This document shows positions 11,912-15,291 of a DNA stretch of 17,074 nt, one piece after another. Position numbers and translations under genes: made by a program. The stretch covers positions 1-17,074 of the forward strand of contig NZ_WJFC01000263.1 in the NCBI RefSeq assembly GCF_009725235.1, read 5' to 3'. Under the pieces are notes generated by a model. It was not told the origin of the DNA and did no database searches. It saw only the letters and a list, made by a program, of their open reading frames with translations. Source of the stretch: Scytonema sp. UIC 10036. GTDB taxonomy: Bacteria; Cyanobacteriota; Cyanobacteriia; Cyanobacteriales; Nostocaceae. The number at the start of each line of letters is the position of its first letter. The stretch's first letter is position 1.

Positions 11912-13611
11912 ATGCTATGTATTCAAGCGTTACCAACAGAAGTTGTGCATCTAATTACCGCCGGGGAAGTTATAGACTCCTTAGCCTCTGTCGTGCGGGA
12001 ATTAGTAGAAAATTCGTTAGATGCGGGTGCAACGAGAATTGCAGTTTCTCTGTGGCCCCAACAATGGCGTGTCCGCGTTGTAGATAATGGATGCGGAATG
12101 CCTTTAGAAGACTTACAACGTGCAGCAACTGCCCACAGTACCAGTAAAATTCGGCAGTGTGCCGATCTGTGGAAAATTACGAGCTTGGGTTTTCGTGGAG
12201 AAGCACTCCACAGTTTGACAACATTGGCAGACTTAGAAATATTGAGCCGTCCTCATTGTGGAGATGGAGGTTGGCGAATTGTCTATGGCTATGGAGGAGA
12301 AGCACGACATATAGAAGCAGCAGCGATCGCTCCGGGAACTATCGTAACAGTTTCCAACCTCTTTGAAAATTGGTCATCTCGTCGTGAGGGGCTGCCACCA
12401 ACAGCACAGCAAATGAAAGCAGTGCAAGCAACTATTCAACAAATAGCGCTGTGTCATCCCCATGTCACTTGGCAAGTTTGTCAAAATGACCGTGAATGGT
12501 TTTCCATTTGTCCTTCATCAGCAGTTGCTCAACTGTTGCCCCAGATTGTACATCAAATCAAAGAGTCAGATCTCCATGAATTAAAACTAGAAATTCCAAA
12601 CCCAAACGACTCCCGCCTCCCGCCTCCCGACTCCCTACTTTCATTAGTGATAGGATTACCAGACAGATGTCACCGTCGCCGTCCAGATTGGGTGAAAGTG
12701 GCAATTAACAAACGGATGGTAAAATCACAGGAGTTAGAGCAAACTATTCTGACAGGATTTCACAGAACATTACCACGCGATCGCTATCCTGTTTGTTTTT
12801 TACACTTATTCGTTCCCCCCGAACAAGTGAACTGGAACCGGAATCCAGCAAAATCAGAAATTTATCTCAATCACCTCAATCATTGGCAAGAGCAAATTTC
12901 CCAAGCCATAGACAAAGCACTCCGCCTTAACTCGACATCGATGGGAGAATCTGCCCACACAACTCGCGTCATCAATTACTTGAAAAAGCAGCAGAAGAAA
13001 AACCCTCATATAACTTTAATCCATCCAACCCCCACAAGAAACCCCCTACCTCCCCACTCCCTACTCACCGACTCCCCACAACATAAAAGCGTTGCTCAAG
13101 TTAATAACACCTATATCGTGGCTAACATCCCGGTGGAGTGTGGTGGTGAACAACACATGCTCACGAACGTATTTTATACGAGCAACTTTGCGATAACTGG
13201 CAAATTGTTCCTATTGAACCACCAGTTATCCTCTATCAACTGTCTCCAGCACAAGTCGCGCAACTAGAACATATTGGTTTGGACATAGAAACATTTGGCG
13301 AACAGCTTTGGGCAATTCGCACCGTCCCTGCACTCTTACGGCAACGAGATGACTGTGCAGAAGCGATTTTAGAACTCAGTTTAGGTGGTGATTTACAGAC
13401 AGCGCAAGTAGCTGTTGCTTGTCGCAGCGCTATTCGTAACGGTACAGCCTTGACTCAGCCGGAAATGCAAACAATATTAGAGCAATGGCAACGCACGCGC
13501 AATCCGCGCACCTGTCCTCACGGACGCCCAATTTGCCTGTCGTTGGAAGAACCAGCTTTAGCCCGGTTCTTCCGCCGTAATTGGGTGATTGGGAAAAGTC
13601 ACGGGATTTGA
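11912..13611 (+). pseudogene. mutL: DNA mismatch repair protein MutL, reading frame disrupted
   Basis: The N-terminal GHKL ATPase is intact: IQALPTEVVHLITAGEVIDS, ELVENSLDAGAT (31-41), VVDNGCGM (56-63), AHSTSKI (74-80) and SLGFRGEAL (91-99). MutL couples MutS mismatch recognition to strand removal. The frame opened at 11912 ends at 13267 after 451 codons, with a nonsense tail beginning near V403. The expected C-terminal dimerisation/endonuclease domain is present in pieces: HPGGVW in the +2 frame (13126-13143), EQH back in frame 0 (13148-13156), then AHERILYEQLCDNWQIVPIE onward in +2 to a stop at 13611. Four single-base deletions between about 13124 and 13158 explain this; restoring them gives about 567 aa, near the normal cyanobacterial MutL size. 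Late motifs CPHGRPICLSL are preserved. It is either a local sequence error or a recent inactivation. Confidence 0.92.
12607..12634. repeat. Four heptamers inside mutL coding sequence
   Basis: Units CGACTCC, CGCCTCC, CGCCTCC, CGACTCC, encoding DSRLPPPDS in the MutL frame. 28 nt is not a multiple of three, so the frame is kept only with its flanks. A second, looser array of CTCCCCA/CTCCCTA units lies at about 13038-13078 in the linker before the C-terminal domain. Confidence 0.75.
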
Positions 13612-13675
13612 AAAATTTTGTGAAAAGGAGCTAAGGCATTAAGATACACAATGTTTCTTATCGATAGTAGCCCAT

Positions 13676-14293
13676 TTATTCTGAGTCTAAATTATCTATT
13701 AACTCTTCTAAAGCTAAATTTTGGGTATCTTTCGGTAAATAATCAAAAATTTTTTTTAAAAGCTCTGGAGATGCATTTCTTGCAAACCAGTCTTCACTGG
13801 GATTGTCTTGAAGATTCAAAAAATACTTTAAACGTTCTTCTATAGCTTCTCTATCAGCTTGCTCCAGTTGTCCAATTCGATTTAACCAATTTCCCATTGA
13901 ATCTTTAAAGCAATTAGCATCGACAGAGCATATCTGATGAACCAATGCGAAAGATTTTTTATCCAGATTATTTCTACTTGTAGGGTTAATAGGGTATGCT
14001 GTTGGTAAACCTTTATCTTGTTCTCTTGAACTTGAAGTGAGTGGAATAACCGTAAAAGTTTCTATATAGCTATAGTCATCTTGGAACTGGTCATTTGTCC
14101 AAATAATATAGGGATGTTCGCCTCTAAACACCTTACTAGAATTAATTTTTAGCTGACAGGAAATAGTTTTACATTCAATTTCCCCTGGTTCATTTAAGTC
14201 ATAAAGATGAATGTGACCGAGTTTACAACGAAGAGAAACTCTGTATGGATTGATAAAATAAATCCAACCTTGACGAGGTCTTTTTCCAGCCAC
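13676..14293 (-). CDS. PemK/MazF-like protein, putative toxin partner of the Panacea gene
   Basis: 205 aa from a GTG start (14293-14291), one base after the TAG of the upstream gene, with AGGA about 7 nt before it, so translation is probably coupled. MazF/PemK-like features: GWIYFINPY near residue 9 (usual GDIYxxDxxP strand), then an insertion (about 20-53), RGEHPYIIWTND (57-68, usual RRPVLVxSND), FTVIPLTSSS (80-89, retaining the Thr of the active site), LVHQICSVDANCF (117-129, usual LLEQIRTVDKxRL) and LNRIGQLEQADREAIEERL (137-155). The catalytic Arg position before Pro is His60. A 45-residue C-terminal extension is unusual. Known MazF proteins are dimeric mRNA-cleaving toxins; whether this one cleaves RNA is uncertain. 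It is AT-rich, without HIP1 sites, and convergent with mutL. Confidence 0.72.
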   Translation of the reverse strand: MAGKRPRQGWIYFINPYRVSLRCKLGHIHLYDLNEPGEIECKTISCQLKINSSKVFRGEHPYIIWTNDQFQDDYSYIETFTVIPLTSSSREQDKGLPTAYPINPTSRNNLDKKSFALVHQICSVDANCFKDSMGNWLNRIGQLEQADREAIEERLKYFLNLQDNPSEDWFARNASPELLKKIFDYLPKDTQNLALEELIDNLDSE

Positions 14294-14294
14294 T

Positions 14295-14780
14295 CTATAT
14301 TCCTAATTCATTTATTAATTTTTCTCTTTCAGAATGTAAGTTAAGTCGAACTTTCTCTTCTGGTTTATGAGTATCTTTAACTTCAAGCATTGGAGATGTT
14401 TTGTAGACATACTCTAGCAATTGATTCAGTTTATCTTGTCCTAACCCAGCCCATTCCCTTCTAATATTGTCAAGCATCAATTTGAGACCTTGTGACAAGT
14501 TTAAATTTTCTATATTACCTGCTTGAGGACCAAGTTTGAGAAGCGTTGTATTTCCCAGTGATTCTTGAATAATCTCTTTTCCGTTCATGTTGTTTAGGGC
14601 AAGCTCTATATCCTCATCCCAAGGTCCATAGTAATAATAATACCAGTTGAGCTCGGTTAGTTGCTTTCCTGTCCATTTGACAGCGTAAAGATCGGCTAAA
14701 TACAAAAACTTAATAATTTGAGTTTTTGTGATGTATCCTTTTGTTTCGTAGACAAAATATTTTATGAGCGTTTCCAACAT
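14295..14780 (-). CDS. Panacea-domain (DUF4065, SocA/GepA-like) putative antitoxin
   Basis: 161 aa. The opening helices and KFLYLADLYAVKWTGKQLTE (24-43), followed by NWYYYYYGPWDEDIELAL (45-62), are the signature of the Panacea/DUF4065 family (KLLYLADxxxLxxxGxPL...YxxYxYGP). Members include SocA, a proteolytic adaptor for the toxin SocB, and PanA antitoxins that neutralise many unrelated toxin folds. The C-terminal half is helical and charged, as expected for the variable toxin-binding part. It is the first gene of a two-gene unit with the MazF-like gene one base downstream, the usual antitoxin-toxin order. The ATG at 14780 is preceded by AAAGAG. A predicted promoter with a LexA-box-like site lies about 125-170 bp upstream. 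The antitoxin role is inferred from family and gene order. Confidence 0.82.
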   Translation of the reverse strand: MLETLIKYFVYETKGYITKTQIIKFLYLADLYAVKWTGKQLTELNWYYYYYGPWDEDIELALNNMNGKEIIQESLGNTTLLKLGPQAGNIENLNLSQGLKLMLDNIRREWAGLGQDKLNQLLEYVYKTSPMLEVKDTHKPEEKVRLNLHSEREKLINELGI

Positions 14781-14834
14781 AACTCTTTTTGTTTCTAATT
14801 GTTAAGAAATTTTTGGGAAACCATCATGATATCT

Positions 14835-14861
14835 GATAGATGCTTCTTGCAAAGCATTATC
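14835..14861 (-). promoter_or_regulatory. Hairpin in the leader of the Panacea/MazF-like operon
   Basis: On the minus strand, ATGCTT and AAGCAT pair around a 6-nt loop and are extended by GATA/TATC with a one-base bulge, making about 10 base pairs. It lies about 55 nt upstream of the Panacea start within the predicted leader. It could affect translation or RNA stability; no specific family is recognised. Confidence 0.3.
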
Positions 14862-14904
14862 CTTACGTTAAATTGATAACTGAACATTGTCAGCAATCAA
14901 ATTA

Positions 14905-14918
14905 AGTACACGAGTACT
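14905..14918 (-). promoter_or_regulatory. LexA-box-like operator (AGTACACGAGTACT)
   Basis: This 14-mer fits the cyanobacterial LexA consensus RGTACNNNDGTWCB at every constrained position (consensus quoted from memory for Anabaena-type species). It directly follows the predicted -10 element of the Panacea operon, overlapping the expected transcription start, the usual place for a repressor. A third GTAC lies at 14925-14928. Not proven; a dedicated Panacea/toxin autoregulatory operator is the alternative. Confidence 0.45.
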
Positions 14919-14948
14919 ATATTAGTACATGGTCAAAATGATAGTCAA
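14919..14948 (-). promoter_or_regulatory. Predicted sigma-70-type promoter of the Panacea/MazF-like operon
   Basis: On the minus strand a -35 TTGACT (14948-14943) is separated by 18 bp from a -10-like TAATAT (14924-14919). The -35 matches the consensus at five of six positions and the -10 at four of six. Transcription would begin inside the LexA-like box, giving a leader of roughly 125-130 nt. Confidence 0.4.
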
Positions 14949-15058
14949 CACTTCTTATTAATTTATCTGAACACAAATTCGTGTTACCCTGTTTTTGCCA
15001 TGTCATTGGATGAGTGTTTAATCACATTTGGTTTACCTTCATCTCATACATGATTATA

Positions 15059-15088
15059 TGTTGGGTTTCGTTCCTCAACCCAACCTAC
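15059..15088. repeat. Half-copy of the foldback element at 1717-1779
   Basis: Identical over 30 bases to the right arm and CTAC flank of the element at 1754-1783. It can itself form a small hairpin (TTGGGTT with AACCCAA). The left arm is absent here. Confidence 0.85.
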
Positions 15089-15263
15089 TTTAAATTATCT
15101 CTAATCAGTGACCAGCGATCGGTAATAGTAATTGACTGGTAACCAAGGACAAATGACCAATGACGAGTTATGTATACAGTGCTTGCGCCATTATTTCTTC
15201 CATGAAAAAATAAATTGATTCATCCTTCAAATCCCCTACTTTATAAGTATGAGAATTAACTAC

Positions 15264-15287
15264 TCACTGGTCACTGGTCACTGGTCA
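15264..15287. repeat. Heptamer tandem repeat (TCACTGG)
   Basis: Three TCACTGG units and a partial fourth, ending about 5 bp before the stop codon of rlpA. Confidence 0.8.
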
Positions 15288-15291
15288 GGTG

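Follow-up and report, generated by a model that had tools for sequence, protein, structure and literature searches.

A predicted Panacea antitoxin gene paired with a gene for a predicted, divergent MazF-fold toxin in Scytonema sp. UIC 10036 and other cyanobacteria

The panA and panT genes of Scytonema sp. UIC 10036

The stretch of contig NZ_WJFC01000263.1 of Scytonema sp. UIC 10036 analysed here (17,074 nucleotides, referred to as the window) contains two adjacent genes, panA and panT, with the domains of a PanAT toxin-antitoxin pair. Both are located on the minus strand, which was left unstated in the original prediction, within the same outer limits as given there (13676 and 14780). The upstream gene panA (14295..14780, minus strand) has an ATG startcodon and a TAG stopcodon and encodes a predicted Panacea (SocA-like) antitoxin of 161 amino acids (aa), and the downstream gene panT (13676..14293, minus strand) has a GTG startcodon, aligned with the start sites in homologues, and encodes a predicted PemK/MazF-fold toxin of 205 aa. 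Only one base separates the panA TAG from the panT GTG. Both products scored above the Pfam cut-offs, with 33.9 bits for SocA_Panacea (PF13274, cut-off 25.7) and 42.7 bits for PemK_toxin (cut-off 23.1), and thus the open reading frames and the profile search agree with the 161 aa Panacea gene and the GTG-started 205 aa MazF/PemK-like gene one base further on that were originally predicted.

An AGGA is located 7 bases before the panT GTG, within the 3′ end of panA, a position which fits translational coupling of panT to panA. Promoter-like sites around the pair were not above chance (3, versus a mean of 6.4 in shuffled sequences), a single terminator-like site was detected on the opposite strand (versus 0.8 in shuffled sequences), and Rfam gave nothing at gathering scores. 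The pair is flanked by a mutL gene, recognised from Pfam matches to its pieces, and by a gene which we take to be RlpA-like.

The Panacea match of PanA covers residues 23–119 and is followed by a C-terminal tail (residues 120–161, about 40 residues) which is strongly conserved in the alignment of the family (alignment A2), with no second Pfam domain above cut-off in the protein. The partner of the toxin is a Panacea protein and not a DNA-binding antitoxin of the MazE/PemI type. Stand-alone Panacea domains are reported to neutralise directly, with others relying on added elements (PMC10440598); for PanA both direct and element-aided neutralisation are possible, since it has a single Pfam domain yet a strongly conserved tail. 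A total of 346 PanA homologues were found at E ≤ 0.001, one of which (P0135) bears the label Methylacidiphilales. Weak matches of PanA to the PADLOC DarG model (E 0.00046, 17.8 bits) and to NCBIfam ICE_Mbov_0400 (15.8 bits, cut-off 55) were not used.

Divergent build of the toxin

The PemK profile match of PanT is accompanied by a predicted MazF fold, in a structure model built with 141 sequences, which replaced a first model with a predicted local distance difference test (pLDDT) score of 66; residue conservation in the family was likewise counted over 141 sequences. The insertion and the C-terminal extension suspected in the original prediction were both recovered. There are 43 residues between P16 and H60 in PanT and 9 in ordinary MazF proteins, such as those at loci L072 and L079 (the latter counted by eye), giving an insert of approximately 34 residues with a Cys-His-Cys-Cys set. 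This set (C23, H27, C41 and C46; residues 23–46, 14156..14227, minus strand) lies in the loop before strand 2, with C23 present in 137, H27 in 139 and both C41 and C46 in all 141 sequences, and the four together in 137/141. The spacing from C41 to C46 is 4 residues in 117 sequences and 2 in the other 24. The insert may bind zinc and is a putative zinc ribbon. At the other end of the protein, structural matches to MazF stop at PanT residues 160–164, and the extension beyond (about residues 163–205; 13676..13807, minus strand, including the stopcodon) is modelled with helices at 167–173, 176–185 and 188–204.

The predicted active site combines a retained and a replaced residue. MazF proteins carry a catalytic Arg before a Pro (R25 in the Bacillus subtilis MazF), and alignment by hhalign against 16 MazF proteins of related genomes placed H60 of PanT, in the sequence R57-G-E-H60 (14114..14125, minus strand), at the position of this Arg. 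The H60 column contains His in 133, Gln in 7 and Asn in one sequence, with Arg in 0/141, and the canonical Arg before Pro is therefore lacking from the PanT family. The same column contains Arg in all 25 of the 28 PemK matches that cover it, in a comparison profile seeded with 16 sequences picked for [RK]P. Three residues upstream, the R57 column has Arg in 138/141. The counterpart of the MazF active-site Thr (T48 of the B. subtilis protein) is T86 (14036..14038, minus strand), where Thr is found in 135, Ser in 5 and Ile in one of the sequences; this column is spanned by a weak profile alignment of PanT to solved MazF structures (E 0.05–0.07).

This build of PanT appears to be a structural variant of its own among MazF-type toxins, and any novelty would reside in the toxin itself, namely in the Cys/His insert and the loss of the canonical Arg. 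No title describing a MazF with a zinc ribbon or zinc finger turned up among the results listed by searches of open-licence literature. We tentatively raise the possibility, which we hold to be somewhat less probable than its opposite, that PanT is the founding member of a MazF subclass, with a zinc ribbon instead of the loop that joins strands 1 and 2, a catalytic Arg shifted three residues upstream (R57), a new RNA specificity, and Panacea antitoxins as its partners in cyanobacteria. On this reading, since one relative without the ribbon, the L044 toxin, has kept its Panacea partner, the ribbon would serve in recognition of the target and not of the antitoxin.

Pairing, toxin breakage and probable transfer in cyanobacteria

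A scan of genome contigs with the toxin alignment (A1) identified 48 loci, 47 of which were cyanobacterial, and in 47/47 of these the gene directly upstream of the toxin on the same strand is an A2-family Panacea gene (broken in three), which shows that the pairing is conserved across cyanobacteria, as the original prediction proposed to survey. The distance between the two genes was 103 nt at L045. The remaining locus (L048, Pseudomonas, 35% over 54 residues) was rejected as a coincidental match, falling in a short frame with a longer frame opposite it, with no Panacea found by profile in its 10 kb, and a match on a viral contig (L135, 37% over 75 residues) is an ordinary MazF-like stretch, as judged by eye from its list of open reading frames alone. 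A protein search with alignment A3 gave 264 toxin homologues at E ≤ 0.001 among 2,743 candidates, and among the 120 homologues listed, all those with an organism name were from cyanobacteria.

In the reverse direction, 386 genomes from the same phylum as Calothrix sp. NIES-4105 were searched for Panacea, with matches at 19 places in 18 genomes. Sixteen places in 15 genomes were strong matches (E below 1e-50), of which 14 have an adjoining full-length toxin; the weak matches L068–L070 are outside this count. At L066 panA is intact and the toxin is reduced to profile positions 169–198, and at L067 (1462–2620) a panA-family gene is followed by a gene for 72 aa and a PIN-domain gene, with no MazF-like toxin, possibly a swap of partner by the Panacea gene. 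The distant Panacea genes at L068 (602–1947) and L070 (1435–2342) are each preceded by another gene; the two preceding genes resemble each other in short stretches (IDKGCIG and INQGCIG, MRMKSKTI and LRMKAKTI) and are possibly another conserved Panacea partner.

Breakage of the two genes was scored in 56 loci, comprising the 47 loci and 9 further places, with 11 places left out as duplicates of loci already counted (L049–L053, L056, L058, L060, L061, L063 and L065), and a gene was called intact when one open frame covered at least 93% of the profile. The toxin was broken and the antitoxin intact in 6/56 loci (L008, L033, L042, L043, L046 and L066), both genes were broken in two (L029 and L047), the antitoxin alone in one (L019), and the toxin was absent from one (L067). 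The L044 and L045 genes are below the threshold but are single open frames and were counted as variants, and L027 was scored intact although its panA is cut short by a stopcodon and lacks the final 8 profile positions. Outside the 56 loci, the toxin of genome G546 ends about 20 residues early next to an intact panA. Wholly lost toxins are under-counted, because 47/56 loci were found via toxin peptides. The excess of toxin breaks matches the expectation for a toxin with its antidote, with small numbers and with some breaks perhaps being assembly errors. Purifying selection acts on both genes, with median ratios of nonsynonymous to synonymous substitution (dN/dS) of 0.17 and 0.21 and maxima of 0.47 and 0.79 (471 and 626 usable pairs, 47 sequences), and the panA and panT distances are correlated (r = 0.87, with none of 2000 permutations as high).

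The absence of HIP1 sites (GCGATCGC) from the unit had been taken as a hint of transfer. This argument fails, because the 14 sites in the 17,074 bases of the window predict only 0.91 in the 1,105-base unit, and none is expected by chance with a probability of 0.40. The unit has a G+C content of 33.8%, versus 41.5–47% in twelve other genes, and 1.6% of 1,105-base segments (step of 50 bases) have a value this low. The intergenic stretches flanking the unit are likewise poor in G+C (32.8% and 34.2%). The low G+C content suggests a foreign origin, without being proof of it.

Six neighbouring genes or gene pieces of the window (purA, a rhodanese-like gene, a deaminase-like gene, two mutL pieces and rlpA) gave no tblastn match at 1e-8 in the 47 loci, and panA matched all 47 in the same comparison; as a positive control, the mutL and rlpA queries matched two relatives which retain these flanks. 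At least 4 kb was available on both sides for 33 of the loci and at least 2 kb for 37, with 10 being short on at least one side. The similarity at the DNA level is confined to the two-gene unit and at most about 40 bases beyond. When compared with each other for common 3-kb flanks, the 47 loci form 20 groups, of which the largest comprises 24 loci linked in part via short stretches, and the unit was therefore inherited in place in some lineages. The toxin is also found at 72–76% identity on four cyanobacterial plasmids, two of which are typed as conjugative; in two of these plasmid records the pair is annotated as a SocA-domain antitoxin and a PemK/MazF toxin, in one case near a ParM/StbA gene. 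No match to the toxin was found in phage records. The pair has probably been transferred between cyanobacteria.

Genome G546 (L133) has the unit at the same mutL site with 87.6% identity, and genome G545 (L132) has both flanks at 88–89%, with no unit and 7.8 kb of other DNA between them, presumably a dynamin-like GTPase gene cluster. In L133 the interval between mutL and the RlpA-like gene contains PanAT plus a group of regulators, which we read as RsbU/RsbW-like. This interval (13612–15291 in the window) looks like an insertion hot spot, occupied by PanAT, by PanAT with regulators, or by the GTPase cluster. The mutL gene of the window itself (11912–13611, plus strand) is split over two frames, with gaps at about 12971–13157. 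Relative to the open mutL genes of L132 (559 aa) and L133 (576 aa), one or two bases are missing at five sites in a segment of 190 bases, which represents either a patch of sequencing errors or a decaying mismatch-repair gene.

Proposed function and relation to known systems

The pair is very probably a type II PanAT module which spreads by horizontal transfer and whose divergent MazF-fold toxin is probably an RNase. As panA comes first and panT is likely to be translated next by translational coupling, the antitoxin would be made ahead of the toxin. PanA consists of a single Panacea domain plus the conserved tail and most likely binds and blocks PanT, and loss or triggering of PanA would free the toxin, which would then most likely cut RNA and halt translation. 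The active site would retain its Thr but have His where Arg is usual, and the conserved Arg three residues upstream may act as a substitute. The loop replaced by the Cys/His insert borders the RNA groove in MazF, and the insert may set RNA specificity.

The biological role of such a module may be phage defence, with Panacea sensing infection and releasing PanT (abortive infection) and with plasmid addiction being secondary. This role is compatible with the PanAT module proposed here, and we consider it a serious possibility, short of an even chance. Panacea was proposed as a sensor domain, and such networks were tied to phage defence, in PMC10440598, and the unit is patchily distributed and mobile; against this, the weak DarG match of PanA was the only hit among PADLOC models, and the toxin has no counterpart in phage records. 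It is considerably less probable that PanT has the MazF/CcdB fold without being an RNase, acting as a gyrase poison like CcdB or binding RNA without cutting, while still being neutralised by PanA, a reading for which the lack of the canonical Arg speaks. We consider it quite improbable that the pair is a SocAB-like type VI system, with PanA as protease adaptor sending the toxin to degradation: PanA and SocA have a Pfam domain in common, and SocA is called a proteolysis-promoting antitoxin of SocB, but the toxin here is PemK-like by Pfam and not named SocB, and complex formation and direct neutralisation were reported for PanAT pairs (PMC8832971). A merely accidental neighbourhood of two functionally unrelated genes is practically dismissed by the pairing in 47/47 loci whose surroundings lack the flanking genes of the window.

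Panacea neutralises many unrelated toxins by a mechanism that is only partly understood, and a toxin family with at least 264 homologues and a steady Panacea partner in the surveyed loci makes a good system for the study of Panacea recognition. The copies with a broken toxin, the ribbon-less L044 and L067, where a PIN-domain gene replaces the toxin, are useful natural variants. Should PanT prove to cut RNA despite its missing canonical Arg, this would demonstrate that a MazF active site is open to rebuilding.

The combination of Panacea with a MazF-fold toxin was originally proposed as a candidate new pairing, and although the pairing is real and conserved, its novelty did not hold, as PMC8832971 (2022), which named Panacea, includes PemK in its list of CDD domains from Panacea-associated toxins, and plasmid annotations already contain such pairs. 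MazF/PemK is also named as one of the most frequent folds in the wider network (PMC10440598). The Panacea-PemK pairing is thus already known and the toxin build is a variant, with the Panacea domain and the adjacent genes in 47/47 loci as in PanAT pairs. Nine pairs were validated in PMC8832971, including those of Pseudomonas moraviensis and Bifidobacterium ruminantium, with toxicity and rescue demonstrated in E. coli. As in the pair described here, these two combine a Panacea antitoxin with a toxin of predicted EndoA/PemK/MazF fold; unlike PanT, which has a Pfam PemK match, their toxins are described there as having no CDD match. Ten residues of the validated Pseudomonas pair printed there were found in 0/298 genomes. 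Panacea-paired toxins with CDD PemK matches (PMC8832971) have the same domain pairing, and the cyanobacterial family may be among them. A Pseudomonas Panacea gene (L134, 951–1923) has a 138 aa neighbour one base downstream, with no Pfam match and no detectable similarity to the PanT family; the start of this neighbour, by eye, resembles a MazF-type strand pattern.

With MazEF and PemIK, in which the antitoxin gene also comes first, the pair shares the toxin family and fold and the tight spacing, but here Panacea replaces MazE/PemI, and the toxin differs by its Cys/His insert, by the His at the position of the canonical Arg and by the helical extension at its C-terminus. With SocAB it has the SocA_Panacea antitoxin domain in common, combined here with a toxin that is PemK-like by Pfam.
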